Below, piece after piece: positions 7,561 through 28,399 of a DNA stretch of 36,379 nt. Location: positions 1 through 36,379 of the IMG/VR virus record IMGVR_UViG_3300022857_000027; one strand, given 5' to 3'. A model generated the notes under the pieces. That model saw only the letters and a list, made by a program, of their open reading frames with translations, had not been told where the DNA came from and did no database searches. The translations under genes and the position numbers were made by a program. Source of the stretch: a virus. Position 1 is the first letter of the stretch. Each line of letters begins with the position of its first letter.

Positions 7561-8306
7561 TACACGCCTCCTAATAATTGGGCTTGATTGCCGGGCTTCT
7601 CGCCGGGATGTACCGCAAGGAACAGGCTAGAAAGCGCGCCGGATAGCAGCGGGTTAGTGTTCGCTCCAATCTTATTTAATAGAAAGTCAGCATTGGGAGC
7701 CGAACCCCAGTTAGTTGCCCCTGCATTCGCTTGATCGTCTGCAAAGTTCCGGCTGAGTGCTCCGAATTGCTGGTCCGTCAAATACCCGTCTTGGTAAGCC
7801 TTAGCCGCTAATGCTTGGTTAGTTGTACCGCCCGGTGTGAATTGGACAGGCTCTGTACCTGGTGCTGTAATACCCGCGCTCACAAAGTCAGGAACCTGAG
7901 TGTTAAACATCGATTCAAGGTTGCGTTCAGGATGTAAAATTCTAGGCTGAATACCGGACATATCGACAGGAAGCCCAAGCAAAGCGTTTTGTGTCTGCTC
8001 CTGGCCTGCAAGCATCGCTTCCTGAGCAAAGAAGTTACCCCTTGCCGTGGTGTCGATCTGCTGGCGAGTCGATAACCCTTGAGTATCGAGAGCACCTTGT
8101 ACGCCAAGTTCTCGGTTTTGCTGTGCAGCACCGAATAAAGGAACAGCGTCCTTCCGGGCTTGCGCCGCCTGCTCTTTAATAAATTGAGTTTCGGCTGCGT
8201 TTTGATCTTCCTGAGCGTCGAGTGCATCGCCTCTGGAATTGTAATCAGATACAGCCCCACCTATGGCAAGACCCCCCCCGATTACTGCTGCTGTGGTAAC
8301 GGCCAT
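7560..8306 (-). CDS. Internal virion protein (P22 gp7-like position)
   Basis: 248 residues, near the 229 of P22 gp7. A hydrophobic N-terminus (VTTAAVIGGGLAIGGAVSDY) resembles the membrane-active start of ejection proteins; then an Ala/Gln-rich helix (EQAAQARKDAVPLFGAAQQN) and a mixed C-terminus. The ATG overlaps the acetyltransferase stop (TAATG). Together with the next three genes it makes up the internal-protein block. No catalytic motif is visible. Confidence 0.55.
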   Translation of the reverse strand: MAVTTAAVIGGGLAIGGAVSDYNSRGDALDAQEDQNAAETQFIKEQAAQARKDAVPLFGAAQQNRELGVQGALDTQGLSTRQQIDTTARGNFFAQEAMLAGQEQTQNALLGLPVDMSGIQPRILHPERNLESMFNTQVPDFVSAGITAPGTEPVQFTPGGTTNQALAAKAYQDGYLTDQQFGALSRNFADDQANAGATNWGSAPNADFLLNKIGANTNPLLSGALSSLFLAVHPGEKPGNQAQLLGGV

Positions 8307-8746
8307 TATAAAACCCTCGAATAGATAACTTCTGTTTGCTGATAGCCTAATTTCTCGTAAATGCCTTTGATCTCTTCAGGCATACTTGATTCCATATAAG
8401 CCATATTCCAATATTTAATACCCGCTGCTTTGGCGAGCCCTTCAATATGCTTTAGCAGGCCAATGCCGTTACGCCCGCTCCTATGCTCTGGGTTTACCCA
8501 CCAAGCAATCTCAGTCCCAGTTGCCACTGCGTTATTACCCAATAACGGGCCTTTAATGCCACACGCAAAGCCGACAACATGCCCGCCGATCTCAACCACT
8601 GACATTAGGTTTTGCTCAATGCAATGCTTTGCCATGTTCATCACCGACACAGAACATAGCGGTTCATCGTAAATAGTGTGCTCCCAAAACTCAGATGACA
8701 TAGCGATAATATCCACCAGGTCGTTATTGCTGCCCGCCCTAATCAT
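8306..8746 (-). CDS. GNAT-family N-acetyltransferase
   Basis: 146 residues from the ATG at 8746, which shares one base with the upstream TGA (TGATG) and has GAGGG upstream; the longer frame to 8767 is less likely. The fold signature runs from MIRAGSNNDLVDIIAMSSEF through EIGGHVVGFACG to motif A, EIAWWVNPEHRSGRNGIGLL, the acetyl-CoA pyrophosphate loop, and ends with a GIYEKLGYQQTEVIYSRVL motif B. It would move an acetyl group from acetyl-CoA to an unknown amine. It lies in the virion operon coupled to the oxygenase-like gene, so its target may be a virion or host-surface component. Confidence 0.85.
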   Translation of the reverse strand: MIRAGSNNDLVDIIAMSSEFWEHTIYDEPLCSVSVMNMAKHCIEQNLMSVVEIGGHVVGFACGIKGPLLGNNAVATGTEIAWWVNPEHRSGRNGIGLLKHIEGLAKAAGIKYWNMAYMESSMPEEIKGIYEKLGYQQTEVIYSRVL

Positions 8747-9315
8747 CAGATAACCCTCGCGAAACAAACTAGAACTAAGCGCCCATCTGTTGAGTCAGCC
8801 CCGAATGAGGTAGGCATTTCTGCCCGGTGCATTGAATGGGTATCAAATACAAATGCGCGGTTAGGCTGCATTTCTACCATTTCTTGTATCTCCCATGCCT
8901 CGCGGTTGTTGGTGTCTCGCTCCCAGATTTCTTGCTCTTCCTGGTTACGGGGGTTCTTATCCATCCCAGTTTCAATATGCCGAACAAACGCAGTGCCGCC
9001 CTTGCAGTGTTCCGCCCGGTTCAGGTATAGAATTATCCCGTAATCGCCCATAGTCGCGTCGTTGTGCGCCTGGTGCGGCACTGGAACGCCCTCAAGAGTC
9101 GCGCGCAAAAACATCACTGTTTCGTTGATGGTCTTAGGTATATTTTCCTGAAGAGATTTAACAACTTTACGCTCTACGCCTTTAGGAATCTCAGTGCTAA
9201 TGCCTGGGTATAAAACCCCGTCAACTGGGTTTACTGTGCCGGTGTAATCTAGCCCATCGCAATGAGTGCGGAACTCATCAAAATAACTCAAGGTGTTGTC
9301 TATGAGTGCCATCAT
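8746..9315 (-). CDS. 2-oxoglutarate/Fe(II) oxygenase-like protein (DUF6445-like)
   Basis: 189 residues from the ATG at 9315 (TGATG overlap with the upstream gene; a start at 9330 is possible). The double-stranded beta-helix metal motif is visible: His84-x-Asp86 in HNDATMGDYGIILYLN, GGTAFVRH as a following strand, a distal His (His160 or His163) in FVFDTHSMHRAEMP, and Arg179 in DGRLVLVCF suited to bind 2-oxoglutarate. Such enzymes hydroxylate proteins, nucleic acids or small molecules. The next gene is the acetyltransferase, an uncommon pair within a P22-like structural block. Substrate unknown. Confidence 0.7.
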   Translation of the reverse strand: MMALIDNTLSYFDEFRTHCDGLDYTGTVNPVDGVLYPGISTEIPKGVERKVVKSLQENIPKTINETVMFLRATLEGVPVPHQAHNDATMGDYGIILYLNRAEHCKGGTAFVRHIETGMDKNPRNQEEQEIWERDTNNREAWEIQEMVEMQPNRAFVFDTHSMHRAEMPTSFGADSTDGRLVLVCFARVI

Positions 9316-10031
9316 CAAATTACATCCCATGTGTCTGTAGCGATGTATCGAAAACTGGTTTCTACATGCTGCGCCCAGGTTGGAATAGTCCCGTTAACTG
9401 TTAGCCCAGTTGTAGTGAGCACGAGGGTTCCGGTTCCCGCCTGCCTGATCGTCAATACATCGCCAACCGCATACGTCCCCGTTGGAATTGTCACAGCAGG
9501 GCTTGCGCCGGTCATACGCTTGGCAACGTTTGCATCACCCACAAGCATTGTGTAAGTGGTTGCGGATTCAGTGGAGATTAGCGGGGCGCTGTAGCCTGAA
9601 ACTTGGCTGGCCAGTATTGCCAGTGCCGCCTCATGCTGAGTGACTGAAGTAGCCGAGATTCTGGCGTCTGCAAAGGTGCCGGTAGTCACTTGGGCTGTGT
9701 CTATCGCGTCAAGTGCCGCTTGCAAGTCAACCTGGCTAGCAATAGACCCACCAATGCCGCCCCATGTCGCAGAACCCACCGAAAGCTGTTCCCACCCTTG
9801 GGACTTATCACCGCTAATGTCAGGCAGCATTTTGCGATAGGAGATAAGCCCCTGCCCTGCGCCCTCATCGATGTAAAGCGACAAGTAAGGAGCTTCTAGT
9901 ACGCCCTCTGGTGATCCAGTGCCAACAGTCGGCAAGGAGCGCGAAACCTTGAACATAAACTCACGGAAGAACAGCGCCATAGTGCGGTCTTCAAGGATGA
10001 TGGGGAGCGATGCGTTTAATACCTCTGACAT
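9315..10031 (-). CDS. Tail fibre / tail needle-position protein
   Basis: 238 residues, directly after the gp10-like gene, where P22 has the tail needle gp26 (233 residues). The N-terminal 75 residues form an unrecognised domain; then GGIGGSIASQVDLQAALDAI, a motif frequent in phage fibres, a short helical stretch, and a C-terminal beta domain (YTMLVGDANVAKRMTGASPA to the end) typical of fibre tips. The fibre motifs suggest it is a small fibre rather than a true needle; the position suggests it caps or decorates the tail end. Confidence 0.6.
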   Translation of the reverse strand: MSEVLNASLPIILEDRTMALFFREFMFKVSRSLPTVGTGSPEGVLEAPYLSLYIDEGAGQGLISYRKMLPDISGDKSQGWEQLSVGSATWGGIGGSIASQVDLQAALDAIDTAQVTTGTFADARISATSVTQHEAALAILASQVSGYSAPLISTESATTYTMLVGDANVAKRMTGASPAVTIPTGTYAVGDVLTIRQAGTGTLVLTTTGLTVNGTIPTWAQHVETSFRYIATDTWDVI

Positions 10032-13933: not shown

Positions 13934-14743
13934 CTAGACAAAGGTAGCGCCTTTTGGCCCTCCGTCACCCTCTGGCATACCCGATCCGCGAACAGGGCTA
14001 ACAGGGTCTGGGGCAAGGTCTTTAGGTTGTGTCATGTTGCGCGCTGCCTCTTTAATGTCGGTGGATATGCGAACCGCTGCGTCCATTGGCGACAGTCGAG
14101 ATATTTCATCCAGCACTGTGGGGTTTTTTGACAGGTACACGGTAATACTGGGGCCGTGGGCCTCACGTAGAATGTGTGTGGCAACTTCCATTGTCAGCCC
14201 GTAGTTTCCCACCACCGCACCGGCTTGCTGTAAATCTACAGGTTCAATGCCTAGCTTCTTAGATCGCTCTGAGTAGTCAACGATTGCAGCCTGGGTATGC
14301 TCTTGCTGCTTGGCCCACTCTGCGTTAGCGGCATCCTGTCGCGCTTGCTCCCTGGCCCGCTGCTCACTGTCAAACCGAGCCGCTTGGATGATGGTGTTAT
14401 CCCTTGCCGCCATCTGCTCTGCAAAATCATCGTCGTAAGGGTCTGGCAATGCGGGGATATCGGGCCGGGTTTCCTGGGGAACTTGCTTTCTAAGCTGCTC
14501 TAGGTCTTCCTGTAGCTTTTGCGCTAAACGTTCAGCCTCGCGAGTCTTGGCGGTCTTTTTGTTGATCGCCTCGTCAAATACTTTTTGTTGGTCTTCAGAG
14601 AATCGAACAGGCTCCTTTACTTCGGCTTTCTCGGTGGGGTCAACTATCTCTTCAGCCGGTGATTCCTCGGAGAAAACAATACCGCTGGTATCTTCCTCAA
14701 CCGGGGCCACTTCGATTACTTCCTGATCTGCCGCTTCACTCAT
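13934..14743 (-). CDS. Scaffolding protein
   Basis: 269 residues, acidic and helix-rich, between portal/structural genes and coat, the place of scaffold in P22-like phages (P22 gp8: 303 residues). The N-terminus is strongly acidic (residues 1-45), then a long Glu/Gln/Arg coiled coil (about 48-150), and a basic, Pro/Gly-rich C-terminus (GSGMPEGDGGPKGATFV). Scaffold directs coat assembly and leaves before packaging. AGGAG seven bases before the ATG. The assignment rests on composition and synteny. Confidence 0.75.
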   Translation of the reverse strand: MSEAADQEVIEVAPVEEDTSGIVFSEESPAEEIVDPTEKAEVKEPVRFSEDQQKVFDEAINKKTAKTREAERLAQKLQEDLEQLRKQVPQETRPDIPALPDPYDDDFAEQMAARDNTIIQAARFDSEQRAREQARQDAANAEWAKQQEHTQAAIVDYSERSKKLGIEPVDLQQAGAVVGNYGLTMEVATHILREAHGPSITVYLSKNPTVLDEISRLSPMDAAVRISTDIKEAARNMTQPKDLAPDPVSPVRGSGMPEGDGGPKGATFV

Positions 14744-14780: not shown

Positions 14781-15248
14781 TTAGTGCAATGTATGCGCCA
14801 TAATGATGGCCAGTATTTCTTCGTCTTCTCTTAAAATGTTCTCGCGCTCATAGTCGCTATAAACTCCGCTACCGCCCCCGCCGCGTGCTGGCTCTATGGG
14901 TATTATCGGCGCTGGATTCTTCGCCAAGAAGTCATGTAACCCGCCTGGTGTTGCTGTAACCGATAGATCAGTGATTCTGTCGGATGACTTACCCCCGCCT
15001 CCGCTGGGAGTCTTCGCAATAAACTCATGCAGCCCGCCCGGTGTTGCCATGACAGACAATTCGGTGAGCCTGGTCGATGGCTTGCCCCCTCCCCCCGCTG
15101 GTGTCTTAGCGATGAAGGTATGTAAGCCACCCGGTAAAGCCTGAACACTGAGCGCCGTTATCTGATCCGACGACTTACCCGAAGCTGGAGACTTAGGGCT
15201 AAAGCTCTGCGCGCGCCCCGGCGTTGCCGTTACCGATAGCGCGGTCAT
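14781..15248 (-). CDS. Structural protein with four tandem ~31-residue repeats
   Basis: 155 residues. Four units follow each other from residue 2: each begins LSVxATPG (LSVQALPG in unit 2), continues GLHxFIAKTP, then a Gly-rich linker GGGGK and SSDRIT. Unit 1 is the most diverged (PGRAQSFSPKSP) and unit 4 loses its linker. The repeats end in an acidic helical tail. The gene follows the repeat-rich 15250-16710 gene by one base and precedes scaffold, so it is likely a capsid decoration or fibre component. Similar ATPGR-type segments occur in other phage structural proteins; exact role unknown. Confidence 0.65.
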   Translation of the reverse strand: MTALSVTATPGRAQSFSPKSPASGKSSDQITALSVQALPGGLHTFIAKTPAGGGGKPSTRLTELSVMATPGGLHEFIAKTPSGGGGKSSDRITDLSVTATPGGLHDFLAKNPAPIIPIEPARGGGGSGVYSDYERENILREDEEILAIIMAHTLH

Positions 15249-15249
15249 A

Positions 15250-16710
15250 TCACACGATTACAAAGGTGTCAGCGTTGCTGGGGGCCTCAGTGATCGCGGT
15301 AAACGTTAGCAGCCCATTGGTGCCGGTGTAGTCCGTGATGTTCGTCGCCTGGTCCTTTAGCGCGCCAGAGGTCCAGATAATAATGCGCCCGTTGTAGTGG
15401 TCGTCTGTGGCTTCCGTGAGATCACTGGTCATCTGAGTTGTGCTGAGCGTTCCGGTCACCGCCGCTGCGATAACAATGGTTTCGGCAGACGCCTCAAGCT
15501 GAACCGCTGCTGCTGTACTGCCAGAGATGGCCACCGCGTCAGAGGACATCAGCCCGCCTGCTAGAGACGCGGGCAATCTGGTCTGGATATCATCCGTATC
15601 AGCTTGTAATGTTGCGATAAGTCCCGGCACATCGTCGGCCTGTAGCTCATTTGTGTCTGCCACGATTGCCGCTAGCTTGGTCGAGTTGTCATCCATTTCT
15701 GTGCGGATTTGAGAAACAGTTGGAGCCGAACCACCGCCAGCCCATGCCGCGTCGCCGCGATTCCTAATAGCCTCGTTAGAATCTGTTGATGTGTCGAAGG
15801 TCGCACCCTCAAGCCCATCAAAGCGCCCTGGAATGTCGTCTGCTTGCAGCTCGTTAGTGTCAGCAACAATTGCGGCCAACTTTGTGGAGTTGTCGTCCAT
15901 CTCGGTCCTGATCTCCGCGACCGTGGGTGATGACCCTCCCGCGCCTGTCGTCCATGCAGCGTCGCCTCGGTTCCTCAACGCTTCAAGTGAGTCTGTCGCA
16001 GTGGCAAAGGTAGCGCCCGACATATCATCAAGCTGACCAGGAATAGTCGTACCTGTATCGACCAAAATAGAATCCACATTCCCGTCTATAGTCGCAAGTG
16101 ATGCAGGTAGGGTTGTGCCAGTGTCTACTAAGATCGCGTCAACAATGCCGTCAACTGTAGCTAGTGCCGCTGCCGTAGCTGCCGAGTCTGTGCCTCTCAT
16201 TGCTGTGGTGGGTATGGCGTCAACTGAAGTCTTAATGGCTCCAAGCCCATCAGTGCCGTTGCTTAGGTCTGTCTGAATGCCATCGACCACCGTATCTACT
16301 ATTGCGAGGTTTGCCGCCGTTGCTGCCAAATCAAGCACAGTTTTAAGCGCTGTCAATCCGTCAGTTGCATTGGCAAGATCAACCGCCGCCGCTGATCGTC
16401 CCAGGGTAAACTGTCCAACTACCTCGCCCACGACACTAACGCTATCCACTGTGCCAGTCGTCACTACCAGATTGTAAGATTTTCCAATCTCGAAGCCGTT
16501 GCCGGTGGTGGCAACTACCGTGAGCATGTTTAAACCCACAACGCCGTCGTGGTCCACTCCGAGGGTAATGCCTGCAGTAATCTGGGTTAGCCCTGCATCC
16601 TCATAGGCGGAAACAACCGGGGAGCCGGCCAAAACCGTGGGAATACCCGAGGCAAATGCCCGGGTTGTGAATGCAATGTATTGCGTTTCGCCTAGTGTAA
16701 AATCTGACAT
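15250..16710 (-). CDS. Large repeat-rich virion protein (fibre/baseplate-like)
   Basis: 486 residues. The N-terminal 110 residues form a beta domain (QYIAFTTRAFASGIPTVLAG, GVDHDGVVGLNM, VVGEVVGQFTLGR) found at the start of many environmental-phage fibre proteins. Residues about 115-385 are a low-complexity alpha/coiled region with internal duplications: VDxILVDTGTTxP twice, and a longer unit with EIRTEMDDNSTKLAAIVAD, TNELQADD, and LRNRGDAAW-type segments twice. The C-terminal 100 residues form a separate beta domain. AGGTAA precedes the ATG. It is probably a trimeric fibre or head-fibre protein. Confidence 0.65.
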   Translation of the reverse strand: MSDFTLGETQYIAFTTRAFASGIPTVLAGSPVVSAYEDAGLTQITAGITLGVDHDGVVGLNMLTVVATTGNGFEIGKSYNLVVTTGTVDSVSVVGEVVGQFTLGRSAAAVDLANATDGLTALKTVLDLAATAANLAIVDTVVDGIQTDLSNGTDGLGAIKTSVDAIPTTAMRGTDSAATAAALATVDGIVDAILVDTGTTLPASLATIDGNVDSILVDTGTTIPGQLDDMSGATFATATDSLEALRNRGDAAWTTGAGGSSPTVAEIRTEMDDNSTKLAAIVADTNELQADDIPGRFDGLEGATFDTSTDSNEAIRNRGDAAWAGGGSAPTVSQIRTEMDDNSTKLAAIVADTNELQADDVPGLIATLQADTDDIQTRLPASLAGGLMSSDAVAISGSTAAAVQLEASAETIVIAAAVTGTLSTTQMTSDLTEATDDHYNGRIIIWTSGALKDQATNITDYTGTNGLLTFTAITEAPSNADTFVIV

Positions 16711-16725
16711 AAATTTACCTGTTGA

Positions 16726-17760
16726 TTATCCGGCCATCCCGCCGCCAATTCCTGCTATTCCGCCCATTCCAGCAAGGCCGCCTTTCCCGGCAATACCGCC
16801 CATTATTCTACCGCTCGCGGCTGCTAAAAACGCATAACACCCGATATCGTTGGTCGTAAACGCATTGCCTTGCAGGTCTAGCGCTGGCCTGCCTGTTGCC
16901 GTGCCCGTGTTGTAAAGTGTTGAGCTTGTATCAGCGATACGGAAGTCGCCGCCCACAGCGTCAGCGAAATCAGCGGAATCAATATCGGTCGTGATGGGAC
17001 TTGTGCCGGGCTCGGTCGAATCACTAGAGGCGTTATGCGACCCCGTCCAGTCTGTGCCCGTCCAGTCTGTGCCGCCATTATAAGCTGCGCAATTGGTCGC
17101 CACCGCATTGCTGCCGGACGTCCCTATCTTGTCAAAGTTTCGGAGGCAGTTGGCGACCGTGGTATTTGTGACCGTGCCGTTAACGAAGTTGTTAATCACC
17201 AGTCCACCACCACCCCAGCCATCAATCAGGCAGGATTCAACGATAGGGGTGAAACCGGAAAACACGCTCGAAAGTGAGTTAGCCCCGATCCCCTCTCCGC
17301 TAATGATACAGCGTTTTAGCTTAGCGCTAGCCGCAAGCGCCACACCACGAGCATAGTTAGCTATACGTGTGCTGTGAATTTGTAAGTCTGTGACTTCAAC
17401 AAAGGAGGCAAGCGATTGCAACACCGGCAAGTTAAAGCCTGCGTCCAGCGCGATCCTGTACCCCGCCCCGCCCTTAATCGTATTGTACGTGTCGCCCCTG
17501 AGCCACAAATAGCGGGTCGCGTCCCCGACCCAGTCCGCAGAAGCAGCATTGACCGCTGTAGTGTCCGTGCCGTTGCCAGCAACGCCCGTAATAATCACCC
17601 GCTCGTCGTTGGTGGTCATTGCGCCGTGGGCGGCTTTTACGCCATCGATAGCGGCCTGCATGGACACAAAGGCCCGCGTAGAACCGGTGGTGCCAGGCGT
17701 AGTGCCGTCGCCGCCCGCAGTCGATGCGGGATTGGCAAAAAACTCTACATCTGTCGGCAT
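16726..17760 (-). CDS. Right-handed beta-helix virion protein
   Basis: 344 residues. The middle (about 75-250) has the short repeating Val/Ile/Asn turns of a pectate-lyase-like beta-helix (YLWLRGDTYNTIKGG, VEVTDLQIHSTRIANYAR, LKRCIISGEG, GTVTNTTVANC). This fold is shared by P22-type tailspikes that bind or cut surface polysaccharide, but no catalytic residues can be pointed out. The C-terminus is a Gly/Met/Ala-rich tail (GGIAGKGGLAGMGGIAGI). The ATG follows the hydrolase stop without a gap (TAAATG), so the two are probably made together. Confidence 0.7.
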   Translation of the reverse strand: MPTDVEFFANPASTAGGDGTTPGTTGSTRAFVSMQAAIDGVKAAHGAMTTNDERVIITGVAGNGTDTTAVNAASADWVGDATRYLWLRGDTYNTIKGGAGYRIALDAGFNLPVLQSLASFVEVTDLQIHSTRIANYARGVALAASAKLKRCIISGEGIGANSLSSVFSGFTPIVESCLIDGWGGGGLVINNFVNGTVTNTTVANCLRNFDKIGTSGSNAVATNCAAYNGGTDWTGTDWTGSHNASSDSTEPGTSPITTDIDSADFADAVGGDFRIADTSSTLYNTGTATGRPALDLQGNAFTTNDIGCYAFLAAASGRIMGGIAGKGGLAGMGGIAGIGGGMAG

Positions 17761-19365
17761 TTACTTAGTGACTACGAGATTAATGTACGGATCACCTGAG
17801 ACAAGCGCGATGTTCATCGTCAATAGGCCTTTAGCGTCCGTGGTATCGGTGCCAGATTGCGAGCCGAACACCCAGCTATAGGCCGTATTCGGCGCAAGGT
17901 TGGAAAACGCCTGCTTGTCGATTAGCTGTGAGAACGTCCACCGCGGCGTTACGTCAACCGAGATGGAACCAATCATGCCTGGCGTGTGATCGTTAGTGCC
18001 TGCCACCTTAGCCACGTACTTAACCGGGAAGGTGATCGTGCTGGCTGTCTCTACAATATTGCCGTGATCCCACCACAGGCCTTGGTTAATATGACCAGAG
18101 CGCGGCATAGTGGAAACGGTCTTGCCGTACCAGTCCTGCGGGTAATCGCCTGTTGAATTAGTGAACGCCAGGAAAGGCCTATCGAGCGAGACTTTGTTTG
18201 TCGTGGGCTCTCTCAGCATGGACCCAACTACCGGGACGCCGTGCGCGGGCGTTAGCTCTGCCCACGTAAAGCTCCCACTGATTTTATTATCTCGCACAAC
18301 GTCAAGAAACTTGGGGTTGAGCATCCCAAGAACATCATTCCAGCCCCACTGGTGGACGTACACAATATTCTGGACGATGTTGTCGAGGGGGGCTTGTATC
18401 TGAAAATCCATCTTGTCCCAGTTGGCAGAGTTGGCCCCTGTGTCCGGCCCCATCGCCGGGTATAGCACGGGCAAGGTCCTGGGCAGTGTGTGCCCGGTAA
18501 TGCCATCGGACATAATAAGCCGCTCGCGCCATCGCTGGCACATGATCATAGGCATTTGCAGTGACGCCCTACCCCCCATCGACTGGCCTTGCGCGGTTAA
18601 ACCCCGACCCCAGTCAAATATAAGAGAGTGGCGGTTTTCGACAAGATCGAGTAACTGACACATCCGCTCGGCGGCATAACTGCCGACCCCCTGCGCTGTA
18701 CCGTAGCCACTCAAGCCCCAGGACTCTATGTGGCCGTAGCTCTCCATATCCTGAGCTTTAACCATAAGCCGGGATTCTTTATCGAAGTGGTCATAGCTCG
18801 GACTGCCCCAGTGAATTCTAGGGCCACCGCCGGACGCGTGAAAGCTGGCGACTACCTTGGACGGCTTCTCTACGCTAGCGCCTTCTGGCCTGATCAAGAT
18901 GTTGTCTTTGTACGTTAGCCGCCAAGTGTAAAACCCCTTAGTGTCTATGCCGTAAGGATCGTATGCCGTATCACTGGGCAGGTCGCAGCGATAGCCCGAA
19001 ACGTAGGTATTCGGGTAAAGGTTTATTTCAGGGCAAGTGACCAGGCTTGTGCTTGGCTCGTTAGGGTCGCCGGGCAAGGCACAACCAACAGCGTCAACCG
19101 GTACGCCTGCGGGAGTCGCTGAACACTGATCTATATCGTCGGGTACGTTGTCGCCGTCTATATCGCTGGGCGGGTTGTTACACGTATTGCTGGGATCATT
19201 CGGGCACTCGTCCAGATCGTCGGGGACGCCATCACCATCAGTATCGACGGGGGCGGACGCGCACAGCATATCCTGAGAATGATACTCGCAGAATTTGTCT
19301 ACAGTTAATTGGGCAGACGCGGTAGCGGAAAGCAACAAAGCGTAAAATGCAATCAAATATTTCAA
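17761..19365 (-). CDS. Exported alpha/beta hydrolase with thrombospondin type-3 calcium repeats
   Basis: 534 residues from a TTG at 19365: AGGAG lies five bases upstream, the upstream gene stops one base before, and this start gives a clean signal peptide, MKYLIAFYALLLSATASA, cleavable before Gln19. (An ATG at 19395 would add ten residues and spoil it.) Residues 41-57 and 68-81 are thrombospondin type-3 repeats (DTDGDGVPDDLDECPND, DIDGDNVPDDIDQC), which bind calcium. Then comes a hydrolase fold: HASGGG near 176 as oxyanion region, nucleophile Ser262 in GQSMGG, candidate acid Asp407 and His425 or His434. It may be a secreted or virion-borne esterase or depolymerase. Many cysteines fit export. 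Substrate unknown. Confidence 0.75.
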   Translation of the reverse strand: MKYLIAFYALLLSATASAQLTVDKFCEYHSQDMLCASAPVDTDGDGVPDDLDECPNDPSNTCNNPPSDIDGDNVPDDIDQCSATPAGVPVDAVGCALPGDPNEPSTSLVTCPEINLYPNTYVSGYRCDLPSDTAYDPYGIDTKGFYTWRLTYKDNILIRPEGASVEKPSKVVASFHASGGGPRIHWGSPSYDHFDKESRLMVKAQDMESYGHIESWGLSGYGTAQGVGSYAAERMCQLLDLVENRHSLIFDWGRGLTAQGQSMGGRASLQMPMIMCQRWRERLIMSDGITGHTLPRTLPVLYPAMGPDTGANSANWDKMDFQIQAPLDNIVQNIVYVHQWGWNDVLGMLNPKFLDVVRDNKISGSFTWAELTPAHGVPVVGSMLREPTTNKVSLDRPFLAFTNSTGDYPQDWYGKTVSTMPRSGHINQGLWWDHGNIVETASTITFPVKYVAKVAGTNDHTPGMIGSISVDVTPRWTFSQLIDKQAFSNLAPNTAYSWVFGSQSGTDTTDAKGLLTMNIALVSGDPYINLVVTK

Positions 19366-19366
19366 C

Positions 19367-19864
19367 CTAACTCCTAATTGGTGTGGCAATAACACTCTTC
19401 AAATACCCGCGCTGGTCACGCTCGATATCAAACTTCACCGGCTTTTGTTCCGGTGCATTGTTTAAGCTGTCTTTTAGTGCGGCAATTAGTGACTTAATTA
19501 GTGCTGGATTTGCCTGTGCAATAACAGAGAGTTGATCGACAACGGCATTCAGATTGCTGTCGCCAACCTCTTTCAGTTGCTTGGTGCTAAGACTCAAGGC
19601 ATTGGTGTGCGCCTTCGCTTGCTTCTCGAAGCGCTTGTCTTGGTCCCGTGATGCCTTGCCCATCTCTTTGGCGATGGTCTCGATACCTAGTAGTATTTGG
19701 TCAACCTGGGCTCGTGTGCTTTCGTCCTGTTGCCGGGCTTGTTTGGTCAGTCCTTTGGACAGAAGCTCAATCGTCTTTCCTGCTTGGGATTCTTTGGCCT
19801 GCTCGCGGTCTTCCAACTCACGCCGGATAAGCTCTGCTGCTACTTGTTGTCGCTCAGTTGCCAC
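19367..19864 (-). CDS. Coiled-coil protein downstream of portal
   Basis: 165 residues from GTG at 19864, overlapping the portal end by 11 bases, with AAGGTGG upstream. Nearly all helix: heptad-like repeats from residue 5 to about 105, then a short hydrophobic stretch (LSVIAQANPALIKSLIAALK) and an ending KFDIERDQRGYLKSVIATPI, a short segment recurrent in phage proteins of unknown role. P22 has no obvious counterpart. Position between portal and the fibre-type genes suggests an assembly or virion factor. Confidence 0.6.
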   Translation of the reverse strand: MATERQQVAAELIRRELEDREQAKESQAGKTIELLSKGLTKQARQQDESTRAQVDQILLGIETIAKEMGKASRDQDKRFEKQAKAHTNALSLSTKQLKEVGDSNLNAVVDQLSVIAQANPALIKSLIAALKDSLNNAPEQKPVKFDIERDQRGYLKSVIATPIRS

Positions 19865-21980
19865 TCAAGCCACCTTGCATAACTTCCATGAGCCGCTTCG
19901 TTGGAGCATTACGAATATCCTCAACCTTGGCGAAGTTATCCAGCTCTGATCCTTCTGCGTCAGCGGTCTTCTTGCGTATGCCGCTCTCAACTTCGATTCG
20001 CTTGGTCTCGGCGCTAATGCGTGATGTCTCAGCGTTAAAGGTGTCGATCTTGAGTTTTTCCATTCTCTCCTGTTGGGAGAACTGTGATTCCTGCTGCTTG
20101 GTCTGAGCGTCCAACATATCGGCCTGCCCTTTCATGGCCTCGGCTTGTGCCGCTATCTCCATAGGGTCTTGCTGTGGAGGTTGATTTTGTGCGGCTTGCT
20201 GCTGCTCCTGGACTTTCTGCTTCTCTTCGTCCGTCCATTGATCCTCGGGTATCAATCCCTGTTGAAATAGCTGGTTGCGCTTACGCCCGCCAATAGAGCG
20301 CATGCCGGGCGCGGGGATATTGTTTAGCAAGATATCGCCGCCCAACTGGATCACACTGGGGTCAACCTTGCCGACTTCAGTTAAGGCGCGAACGGTTTCA
20401 TTCTGGCGATTCTTAAAGCTTGGCCCACTACTGCAGGCAACATCGTACTTTCCTACCGATAGATCGTTGAGCGTGACTTCTTCGCCGGTCTGCTGGTCAA
20501 TAATGACCTCACCAATAGTCGCCATATCAAACGAACCATCTTCGTCCAGTATGCGAACCTGACGCCCAGGCCCGTAAACCTTGGGGATAGCCTTAACCAG
20601 AATGCGCGCCGTGTGACGCTGTGCAATCTCTCGGGCTGTGCTGTACTTGTTGTTACCTGTGTCGCCTTTGTCTTGGAGCTTATCGATAGCCACACCTGAC
20701 TGTGCAAACGGGTTATCACCCATCGAAGCAGAGAACATGCCCGCGCTTTGATTGATGACCGCCTTCATGCCCTCGGAGATTGTCCTCAGCCCTGGGTTGA
20801 TAGTGGCCCCACCGTTCTGCTGTGGCGGCCCTGGTAGTTCTTGATCCGGGTTAAATATCTGCACCGGGTCTGAATTGGTGTTGAGTGTGGCGAGTGTATC
20901 GGTGTGCCCTTTAACCTGGGCGCTGGTCATCCAGTACTTAGCTCTGGGAGCCAGTGCGCCCTCTTCAATCTCACGTGACTGCGAATAGTTATACACACGC
21001 TGTGCATCAATGATCTTTTCAACAGCGCCGTAATAGACTACTTTCTCTTCAACGATATCGAAATTAGCAAAGGCTGGAACAATGGGTAGCCATTCCTCGA
21101 ACACGGTCTTTCTGGCATCGGTCAACCAGTCTTGAGTGCTGAACTCACGCGAATACACGCACCGTTTCATGCGCTTACGCCGCTTGCGCTCTGTGATTCC
21201 CAGCGCTAGCAACTCATCGACAATCTTATCAAATTCAGCATCGGCCTCGTATATTTCGTTATTGGTCATCAGAACCAATTCAATAGGCTCTTCTTTGACG
21301 TATAGGAACTCCCCTACCATCTCTAAGTCTTGCCGGTGGTAGTAAGCCGTTCCGGTGCGATCAGAGCCTACAGAGCCTTCTGTGGCCTCTGGGTACTTGG
21401 TTTTAAAGTCTTCAGGCAATAAGCCGGATAATACCCAGCCATAATCAGCGTCTGAGGCGTCTGGCTCTTCAAACGGGCCAAACCACACGCGATCCTCAAA
21501 GTTACCCACGCGCTTAATAATCAAGTCTTGATCGAATGAATCGCCGTCAACGTATTCCTGGACAACTCGCCAGCCTGCCAAGCCACCGACAACCATGCTA
21601 CGCCCGGCGCTGTTGAATACCTGGACCGCGTTGCTCATCTTCTCAATGTTGCGAACTAAACCGTCATAGGTTTCCGCGATATCTTTCGTTGCATCATTGC
21701 CAGCCGGTGAAATCTTGATATCAAAGTCTGAGCGCTCCATATAACCCGCGATCTGGTCGATAATGGGATTGGTCATGTCAAACGAAAAACGGGGCCTGCC
21801 GTCATTGGCATTCCACCAATAAGACTCCCACTGCCCATCGCGTTTAGTGGTAAACAACTTAGCCTCGCGCACTTGCTCGCGGTTGTCGTGGTCTGCGTCC
21901 TGGGCTTTCTTTAAATGCTCAAGTACCCACGCATGATTTTCGTGGTTGGGGAGATCATCACTGTCTGTTTTGTCTTTCAT
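19854..21980 (-). CDS. Portal protein, P22-like
   Basis: 708 residues from the ATG at 21980 (ATGA overlap with the terminase stop); 21989 is an alternative. P22 gp1 has 725. It forms the twelve-subunit ring through which DNA enters and leaves. Recognisable family segments are AKLFTTKRDGQWESYWWNAN, the FDMTNPIIDQIAGYMERSDF region, WRVVQEYVDGDSFDQDL, and the long Gln-rich helical barrel-type C-terminus (about 590-700: EEKQKVQEQQQAAQNQPPQQ and following). The gene lies directly after the large terminase, its packaging partner. Confidence 0.88.
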   Translation of the reverse strand: MKDKTDSDDLPNHENHAWVLEHLKKAQDADHDNREQVREAKLFTTKRDGQWESYWWNANDGRPRFSFDMTNPIIDQIAGYMERSDFDIKISPAGNDATKDIAETYDGLVRNIEKMSNAVQVFNSAGRSMVVGGLAGWRVVQEYVDGDSFDQDLIIKRVGNFEDRVWFGPFEEPDASDADYGWVLSGLLPEDFKTKYPEATEGSVGSDRTGTAYYHRQDLEMVGEFLYVKEEPIELVLMTNNEIYEADAEFDKIVDELLALGITERKRRKRMKRCVYSREFSTQDWLTDARKTVFEEWLPIVPAFANFDIVEEKVVYYGAVEKIIDAQRVYNYSQSREIEEGALAPRAKYWMTSAQVKGHTDTLATLNTNSDPVQIFNPDQELPGPPQQNGGATINPGLRTISEGMKAVINQSAGMFSASMGDNPFAQSGVAIDKLQDKGDTGNNKYSTAREIAQRHTARILVKAIPKVYGPGRQVRILDEDGSFDMATIGEVIIDQQTGEEVTLNDLSVGKYDVACSSGPSFKNRQNETVRALTEVGKVDPSVIQLGGDILLNNIPAPGMRSIGGRKRNQLFQQGLIPEDQWTDEEKQKVQEQQQAAQNQPPQQDPMEIAAQAEAMKGQADMLDAQTKQQESQFSQQERMEKLKIDTFNAETSRISAETKRIEVESGIRKKTADAEGSELDNFAKVEDIRNAPTKRLMEVMQGGLSGN

Positions 21981-23446
21981 TTGTTCCATCCAGCGAAATT
22001 GATTGTCTCTACTTCGTCGTTAACTTCAATCGGGCGCATCAACATCATTACAGCGTCACCCATGTTTGGGGAGTCAATGCCAAGCTTTTCCATCTCAGGC
22101 TTGGACATGAGCTGAATGCGGCCTGAACCGTTGTATTTACGGGGGATTCTGCATAACTCCGAGCGCAATGCCTGAAGCTGCTCAATGCTTGAAGAGAAGC
22201 TAATTAGGTCGTCGGGGTTGATCGCTTTCTTTTCCTTCTCTACCGCCAGGTACGTGCGTAACATGCGGTCCCTGAGCATCCAGTAGTATTGAGCACGCTT
22301 ATTGAGGAATGCGTCCTTGTTCGTCTTGGGCTTCTTAACTTCACTGTTGATCGGGTCGTATATTTGCTTGGGATTGTCGGCACCTTCAGAGCCCCGGAAT
22401 GACTCAACCACTACCTTTTTGCCCTTGAAGGCGTCCGTGATCTGACGTTTGAGCCCTAAGCCAACACCGTCAGCGTCCCATGTAAAAGTATCAGGCTTCT
22501 TGTCGATAGCGAATGACGTGGCCCAATCGGTGGCCGTGTCTATTCTTCCTGCATCGGTAGACTGAACATCTTTGATTACAACGCCGTGGGAGTACGCTAC
22601 TGCCTTGTGATCTCCACAGTCGGCAGGATCATAGGCCACGCGTTCTTGTCCAACGGCATCGAACCCCAGCTTAATGTGAGCATCAATACAGGCATCGAAC
22701 CATTCGGGCTCAATGATGGCGTTGTCCACGGTATCGGAGTATTTGCCTTCCCAAATATGGTCATATTCTGCCCTGGGTAGGTTAGCGAGATCGTCTAATC
22801 TCTCCTGCTCTAGCTCCGGAGGGAACCAAGGGTTGTCCATCCAATTCACCTCGACCACCATCATCAGGTCATCTTCATAGAATCCGGTCTTGGCCAGTGA
22901 TGCCTCCGCGCGCTTGAGATACTTCTTGCTGATCGCGTCCTTGGAACTCCCACGGTTCATAGTTATCCAGATTTCGGGAGGCTTCTCCCCGTCAATATCA
23001 ATGACGTTATCGGCTGCTGATTTACGAATAGAGGGAGTTAATACCCTGAGCGACTTTTCACTGACTGATTCCCCCTCTTCAATCCAGAGCTTATTAACCC
23101 CGTGGATAGACTTCAGGCTGGTGATGTTGCGCGCCAATCCTTTGTAGAAAATCTCTCCGCCGCTGTGGGCTTTGATCTCATTCGCCATCACTGTGAAGTT
23201 GGCTGATGCCCCCAGCCGCTCGATCTCTTGGCGTAGGCTTTCGTGTACTGAGTCATCAATGCTGTTCTGGAATTCTCTGGTGCAACAGATACGATCGCCG
23301 CAATCCGCAAACATCAACATGAAATCGCCCACGGCTGTGGACTTCTGACTGCCTCGGCCACCGACTGCGATCTTGACCCGCTTGGGCTTAGACAGTAGCC
23401 ATGTCAGCTTCTCAGTCGCTTGTAGGTCTACGGCTGCGCTACTCAC
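21977..23446 (-). CDS. terL: Terminase large subunit (ATPase and nuclease)
   Basis: 489 residues from GTG at 23446 with GGAG seven bases upstream; length matches P22 gp2 (499) and Sf6 gp2 (470). It pumps DNA into the prohead and cuts it. The ATPase has Walker A GGRGSQKST (29-37) and Walker B NKLWIEE (118-124). The RNase H-like nuclease has Asp273 in AYDPADCGDH, Asp324/Asp326 in FTWDADGVG, and Asp464 in NMGDAVMM. The Sf6/P22 relationship predicts headful packaging, which agrees with the circular overlap of the window ends. Confidence 0.93.
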   Translation of the reverse strand: MSSAAVDLQATEKLTWLLSKPKRVKIAVGGRGSQKSTAVGDFMLMFADCGDRICCTREFQNSIDDSVHESLRQEIERLGASANFTVMANEIKAHSGGEIFYKGLARNITSLKSIHGVNKLWIEEGESVSEKSLRVLTPSIRKSAADNVIDIDGEKPPEIWITMNRGSSKDAISKKYLKRAEASLAKTGFYEDDLMMVVEVNWMDNPWFPPELEQERLDDLANLPRAEYDHIWEGKYSDTVDNAIIEPEWFDACIDAHIKLGFDAVGQERVAYDPADCGDHKAVAYSHGVVIKDVQSTDAGRIDTATDWATSFAIDKKPDTFTWDADGVGLGLKRQITDAFKGKKVVVESFRGSEGADNPKQIYDPINSEVKKPKTNKDAFLNKRAQYYWMLRDRMLRTYLAVEKEKKAINPDDLISFSSSIEQLQALRSELCRIPRKYNGSGRIQLMSKPEMEKLGIDSPNMGDAVMMLMRPIEVNDEVETINFAGWNK

Positions 23447-27586: not shown

Positions 27587-28399
27587 TTAATTGTAGTCTT
27601 GCTCTGCCATGTGGCAAAAGATTCCGCACTGGATATCTGGAGCATCATCCATCGGCTTAATATCCTCCGGTAATTCATGTAGCTGTAACCTCCAACGGTT
27701 TGCGCTCCCCTTTTCATTGTATAAATCAGGGCTGCCAAGCTCTTTATATTTTTCAGGGTATCGCTTTTTAACCACAGGCATTGATATTTGGCAGACGCTA
27801 CGCCCCAGTGCTTGCTCTGTTTCGCTCATCTTTAAAAAGTAATCAGGAAAATCCTTCTCTATCTTGCGCCAATAGCTAGGGGATACAGCCTTAACGCACC
27901 CCCGACAATTGTTGTTTTTATACCCTAGCCGATACATTTCAGGCAATTCAATCCCTGCATTTTCCACCATCGCCAGACAGTCTGATTTTGTTAGCCCTGC
28001 ATCAATTAACGGCGCTGATGTATGTATATTGTTAGCGTCAATGAATCTGTCGTATCGGTCCTGCTCTTCCACGGTATAACCCATGACGTGAACATCATCG
28101 GGTTTCTGGAAAGTCTCACGAACCTCTTTTTTTAAAACTCCTGTACACTTTGCTCCCCCAGGACCGACAAGATACCTTGATTTATTGAATACCTCATAGA
28201 TAGACCTGTGATATTTATCATTCCCTAAAATCAGTATTTCTTGACCGAACCACTTCTCACAGTCAGCTAGGAACCTTGGGTTATCCTCGCTTTCCTCTTT
28301 GACCTCACAGTAGGCAATCGTTACAGGGCCTTTGGCTATACTTAGCTTAGTAGCCACTGCTGATGCCGCCCCACAACTAAACCAGCTAACCGTTCTCAT
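27587..28399 (-). CDS. PAPS reductase-like PP-loop protein
   Basis: 270 residues of the adenine-nucleotide alpha-hydrolase fold. The ATP loop is VSWFSCGAASAVATKLSI (residues 4-21), a variant with Cys and Ala in place of the usual SGGKDS. Other marks: GAKCTGVLKK around Cys85, VMGYTVEEQDRYDRF, and a Cys pair CRGC at 165-168, with more Cys near the end (CGIFC), which could hold an iron-sulfur cluster. Phage members have been linked to sulfur assimilation or to nucleic-acid sulfur or base modification; no partner gene is visible. GAGGG nine bases before the ATG; a long gap upstream suggests its own promoter. Confidence 0.8.
   Translation of the reverse strand: MRTVSWFSCGAASAVATKLSIAKGPVTIAYCEVKEESEDNPRFLADCEKWFGQEILILGNDKYHRSIYEVFNKSRYLVGPGGAKCTGVLKKEVRETFQKPDDVHVMGYTVEEQDRYDRFIDANNIHTSAPLIDAGLTKSDCLAMVENAGIELPEMYRLGYKNNNCRGCVKAVSPSYWRKIEKDFPDYFLKMSETEQALGRSVCQISMPVVKKRYPEKYKELGSPDLYNEKGSANRWRLQLHELPEDIKPMDDAPDIQCGIFCHMAEQDYN

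Follow-up and report, generated by a model that had tools for sequence, protein, structure and literature searches.

Where tailed phages encode enzymes directed at cell surfaces, these are mostly tailspikes on the virion or enzymes of the lysis system. What role, then, could be played by a hydrolase with an apparent export signal that is encoded among the capsid genes of a phage? The question is raised by one gene (17761..19365, minus strand, as are all of its elements described below) in a 36,379-base IMG/VR virus record for which no host is stated; this whole stretch of DNA is referred to here as the window. The original prediction, made from the letters alone, was of a signal peptide, two thrombospondin type-3 (TSP3) repeats and a serine hydrolase, and the open reading frame of 534 aa and its coordinates were found to be correct.

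Searches with Pfam and PHROG profiles showed P22-like late genes in the window, comprising terminase, portal (PF16510), scaffold, coat (PF11651), tail accessory factor (PF11650) and stabilisation protein (PF11134), and by these markers the carrier is a P22-like podovirus from an environmental sample. The isolates with the nearest portals were a Pseudoalteromonas phage (42% identity) and a Vibrio phage (38%), which suggests a gammaproteobacterial, and hence Gram-negative, host. The gene had been placed between portal and scaffold, which is right in a loose sense, as five genes occupy that interval. On the minus strand, the P22-type portal (19854..21989; PF16510, E 1e-130) is followed by a 165-aa protein common to both strains compared below (19367..19864), the hydrolase gene, a 344-aa right-handed beta-helix protein (16726..17760; PF13229, E 4e-5, slightly under the cut-off), a 486-aa repetitive and possibly fibre-like protein (15250..16710; no PHROG or phage match), a 155-aa repeat protein (14781..15248; no family match in Pfam or PHROG) and the scaffolding protein at the downstream edge of the insert (13934..14743; phrog_8865). 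No informative matches to PDB sequences were found for the neighbouring proteins, and a promoter scan gave no excess.

Elsewhere in the window, a phosphoadenosine phosphosulfate reductase-like gene (27587-28399; phrog_424, E 1e-41) was observed, as well as an acetyltransferase-like gene between the head and ejection genes (8306-8767; phrog_1249, E 5e-16), with similar-looking genes in the corresponding region of two relatives (L007 and L009), and a DUF6445 protein (8746-9330) that weakly resembles 2OG-Fe(II) oxygenases and also matches a "minor coat protein" PHROG.

The start of the gene was as predicted, a TTG at 19365 directly after the stop codon (19367-19369) of the upstream 165-aa gene, with the Shine-Dalgarno sequence AGGAG (19371..19375) five nucleotides before it, within the end of that gene; the same arrangement was read in a second strain, L003. 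The longer mechanical start of the open reading frame is an in-frame GTG at 19395. The first 18 residues, MKYLIAFYALLLSATASA (19312..19365), are followed by QL and have the n-, h- and c-regions of a Sec signal peptide, with a lysine at position 2, the hydrophobic core LIAFYALLL and an A-x-A site (ASA) at 16-18. Their 9-residue hydropathy, 2.76, was the highest among the 39 genes compared, in which no signal peptide was found for the neighbours of the hydrolase gene in the insert. The clean Sec signal peptide of the original prediction is in this way borne out by sequence features and hydropathy. Furthermore, eight of the ten cysteines of the protein lie within its first 127 residues, and most late virion genes have 0-2. 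The cysteine content and the leader fit an oxidising destination, with export itself a prediction.

Behind the leader, two TSP3 repeats were recognised, as had been claimed. The first, DTDGDGVPDDLDEC (residues 41-54; 19204..19245), matches the canonical DxDxDGxxDxxDxC calcium motif and is like the TSP3 region of PDB 5wtl. The second, DIDGDNVPDDIDQC (residues 68-81; 19123..19164), has N for G and is therefore one residue off the canonical motif; it is a direct repeat of the first, with 70% identity over 47 nt and a spacing of 81. The Pfam TSP_3 model (PF02412) gave the window protein 19.1 bits, below the gathering cut-off of 25 bits, and the L003 variant 33.7 bits, above it. TSP3-like stretches in two further phage contigs were set aside as belonging to unrelated proteins. 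One is a protein with many DTDGDG repeats and no signal peptide, encoded downstream of a structural-looking gene (L155:2606-4411), and the other a subtilase-like protein whose neighbouring genes on a viral contig look structural (L158:3119-4891).

Contig UViG_3300005914_001135 (L003) and the window share 99.3% identity across 5 kb in which terminase and portal lie, and their comparison located a change of cargo at these repeats. In L003 the 165-aa upstream gene, the AGGAG-TTG start and the signal peptide are the same as in the window, and so are the first residues of the mature protein. The two strains part inside the first TSP3 motif (19229..19247), where the blastn match ends at 19229 and the first differing base is near 19246. 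The L003 gene has only 99 residues, consisting of the signal peptide and two TSP3 units, and then runs into stop codons, with no hydrolase; the genes after it also differ from those of the window. In that stretch (L003:4897-6719), the exported TSP3 protein is followed by two proteins that do not resemble the window's, of 154 and 276 aa; the 276-aa protein is lectin-like by eye. The window version was found unchanged over 16 kb in a further record, UViG_3300022867_000065 (L002), whose identical hydrolase gene is the only full-length second copy, which makes a single faulty assembly an improbable source of the arrangement. The portal is immediately followed by the scaffold, or by its counterpart, in Vibrio phage 340E47.2 and in several relatives at a greater distance, and L008, Pseudoalteromonas phage H6/1 and MW202573 have one or a few other genes separating the two. 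Taken with the L003 differences, this adjacency indicates, on comparison of the sequences, that the five-gene block is an accessory insert of strain-variable content. The constant leader thus has the appearance of an attachment site behind which cargo, directed at the cell surface or at what surrounds it, can be swapped.

The origin of the hydrolase was more difficult to trace, as TSP3 was the only part of the protein recognised by standard libraries and no match for the hydrolase part was found in Pfam, PHROGs, NCBIfam or PDB sequences. Direct protein searches of phage and plasmid records and an exact-peptide search of genome contigs gave nothing. Direct searches with the protein returned only marginal matches, in samples of the class of G001 and of the phyla of G008 and G004; one of these (L140) is a true family member, and two (L145 and L146) appear unrelated on inspection. 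Two other candidates were rejected, L021 as a chance match of 12 residues read in a different frame and L159 as an antisense match. The C-terminal SVDVTPR stretch resembles secreted planctomycete hydrolases, and on the strength of this resemblance bacterial genomes were scanned at the DNA level for VD[VIM]TPRRxQxF. At least 118 stretches were obtained, when about eight would be expected at random by our own estimate from the information content of the pattern, and among the matches listed the motif lay towards the end of a long open reading frame in nearly all loci.

A family profile was then built from 84 of these sequences with the phage protein left out; a comparison with the A1 profile, which contains it, was set aside as circular. 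This profile gave the phage protein 78.2 bits (E 6.6e-23 among 2,002 sequences), against a maximum of 10.1 bits among 2,000 shuffles, and aligned both its catalytic and its C-terminal parts. These alignments indicate that the phage protein belongs to an unnamed, often secreted bacterial family (Planctomycetota, Myxococcota, Verrucomicrobiota and others) of long esterase-like proteins with a VDVTPRRxQxF C-terminal domain. GxSMGG and GxxD are shared, and several of the bacterial relatives shown carry signal peptides or lipoprotein leaders, as the phage protein carries its own. Nevertheless, the identity is only about 16-26%, the second R of the family motif VD[VI]TPRRxQxF is W in the phage protein, with an insertion before Q-F, and its histidine is offset by two. 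The TSP3 stalk of the phage protein was also not found by motif search in the collected family members. No report of a protein of this kind was found in literature searches.

Structure prediction supported the assignment. With 44 relatives as the alignment, AlphaFold2 modelled residues 101-534 (17764..19065) with pLDDT 72 and pTM 0.77, much of the core reaching pLDDT 80-95; from the single sequence, pLDDT was 32 and no usable model was obtained. The model has an esterase-type alpha/beta-hydrolase fold (core at about 159-398), followed by the VDVTPR beta domain (about 400-534). Absence of this fold from a predicted structure had been named as one outcome that would speak against the original prediction, and the model shows the fold. 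In fold comparison, esterase D, S-formylglutathione hydrolase and S9 peptidases gave VIA Z scores of 14-15, and a Foldseek search of viral models gave no match at E < 0.001. The predicted catalytic residues are Ser262 in the nucleophile elbow GQSMGG (residues 260-265; 18571..18588), Asp344 in GWND (18334..18336) and His375 in WAELTPAH (18241..18243). Ser262 and Asp344 fall in invariant columns of the family alignment (A5 for the acid); His375 lies two residues past the family histidine column, plausibly through a loop insertion. The serine hydrolase with GQSMGG thus stands, with an elbow whose serine is invariant in the family and sits within the modelled fold.

Searched against PDB sequences, the family profile matched LC-Est1C (2.6e-22), esterase D and feruloyl esterases, a PF00756-like group that shares the catalytic core fold and the nucleophile elbow; these matches cover the catalytic core only and not the VDVTPR domain, and no Pfam hydrolase model was matched by the phage protein. 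A polyester substrate, one of the options raised for comparison, was not supported at family level. Many relatives matched the extracellular PHA-depolymerase model (NF050058) weakly, the best of the five tested reaching 45.6 bits against a curated cut-off of 150, and the phage protein did not match it. The label was dropped, since what the family has in common with extracellular PHA depolymerases (NF050058, TIGR01840) is the alpha/beta-hydrolase fold and a weak profile similarity far below the curated cut-offs. An export signal and TSP3 repeats joined to a catalytic domain are known from Lam16A of Saccharophagus degradans, a secreted marine carbohydrase (PMC2386152), but the enzymes of that type are bacterial glycoside hydrolases, not phage esterases.

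A second phage with a member of the family was found through the DNA motif in viral contigs. This 42-kb record, UViG_3300003465_000019 (G767), has a P22-type portal (phrog_156, E 6e-113), and its family member scored 185 bits and has its own leader, MTMRRLLAAALLLGPVLLLGGAA. Two genes stand before that of the family member, encoding proteins that both begin with signal peptides, one of 622 aa and the other longer and tail-fibre-like. After it come the gene of an 888-aa protein whose leader is Tat-like and, further along, a recognised endolysin gene. The first two proteins had no family library match and are apparent tail-fibre proteins on a reading of their sequences. The exported proteins of G767 have 2-10 cysteines in the parts counted, and several upstream virion genes have none. 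The premise that virion proteins normally lack signal peptides should be treated with caution, as G767 has apparent tail-fibre genes with signal peptides. The whole run (L149/G767:C1, about 30723-39500; L163:16723-19598 and L149:1090-5968) comprises four consecutive late genes with apparent Sec or Tat leaders and several cysteines, two of them tail-fibre-like and two sharing the mature N-terminus ARPLFLRAGHPxGGG.

In a tree of 41 family members, the G767 protein fell in a clade of nine with 100/100 support that does not include the window protein, and the latter was left unplaced on a very long branch (3.37). The simplest reading is that the two phages apparently acquired the family separately. 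The search for homologues in related phages proposed originally had in this way yielded a member in G767 with its own signal peptide and the appearance of a separate acquisition, and a strain, L003, that keeps the leader without the hydrolase.

The explanation that we prefer, at about even confidence, is that of a captured bacterial exoenzyme, exported late and acting around the producing cell on surface or matrix esters. Both a captured host exoenzyme and a secreted enzyme of the surface or matrix had been suggested originally, and both fit the bacterial relatives, several of them with leaders, and the alpha/beta-hydrolase fold. The gene would be expressed along with the late virion genes and the signal peptide would direct the product out of the cytoplasm through the host Sec machinery, where disulphides and calcium-bound TSP3 motifs may stabilise a short stalk. 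The putative triad Ser262-Asp344-His375 would cleave ester bonds in surface or extracellular polymers, an activity to which the fold and two of the triad columns point. Such modification, before and at lysis, would probably ease the release of progeny or their access to neighbouring cells. The TSP3 junction, where the breakpoint was located, may in turn let the cargo behind the constant export leader be exchanged, we infer by recombination at the repeat. Two points weigh against this explanation: the offset of the catalytic histidine from the family column, and the outer membrane of a presumed Gram-negative host, across which no route is visible, so that the protein may stay periplasmic until lysis.

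An unlikely alternative is an exported virion appendage, which would fold with disulphides in the periplasm, attach to the virion at or after lysis and serve as a surface esterase in adsorption. The gene has beta-helix and repetitive genes around it in an insert that varies between strains, which would suit such a part, and so would the G767 member, which stands beside two tail-fibre-like genes with signal peptides and contains a segment that matches a PHROG tail family. However, that match is short and weak (E 2e-4), the window protein has no known virion-attachment domain and its insert neighbours have no signal peptides, and no precedent for attachment after lysis was found here. Equally tentative is a wider reading, to which the window phage and L003 contribute the difference in cargo and G767 its four consecutive genes. 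On this reading, some P22-like podoviruses might possess an exported late module that encodes adhesins, fibres and surface enzymes, all rich in cysteine and preceded by Sec or Tat leaders. These proteins would undergo maturation in the periplasm and, when the cell lyses, would be added to virions or deposited on the surroundings, and the cargo behind a constant leader would be exchanged.

Somewhat less probable still is an accessory lysis esterase that, once exported, would weaken the outermost envelope layer. Phages do encode an esterase for the outer envelope, LysB of mycobacteriophages, and an endolysin with a Sec signal peptide, Lys44 of fOg44 (PMC6116005), and the esterase-type fold with an export signal would suit a LysB-like role. 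The holin and endolysin genes have no recognised spanin next to them, which is weak evidence in its favour. Lys44 and LysB act in lysis, whereas the phage gene lies among capsid genes and its product has TSP3 and VDVTPR domains; unlike a LysB-type esterase, it is encoded far from the lysis genes (1322-2106), and strain L003 does without the hydrolase. The least probable explanation is a recently acquired passenger of no benefit to the phage: the gene is absent from a near-identical strain and its GC3, 0.64, exceeds that of every other gene in the set of 39, but it has a full-length open frame, a conserved nucleophile and acid and its own ribosome site, it sits on a very long branch rather than beside a close bacterial match, and another phage acquired the same family.

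If the captured exoenzyme is the correct explanation, the phage would remodel the surroundings of its host while progeny are being produced, and its action would not be confined to entering or leaving the cell. The position of the breakpoint, at a TSP3 repeat, offers a testable picture of how cargo may be exchanged. Additionally, a large and poorly named family of bacterial hydrolases is linked to phages, by which it was apparently acquired at least twice.
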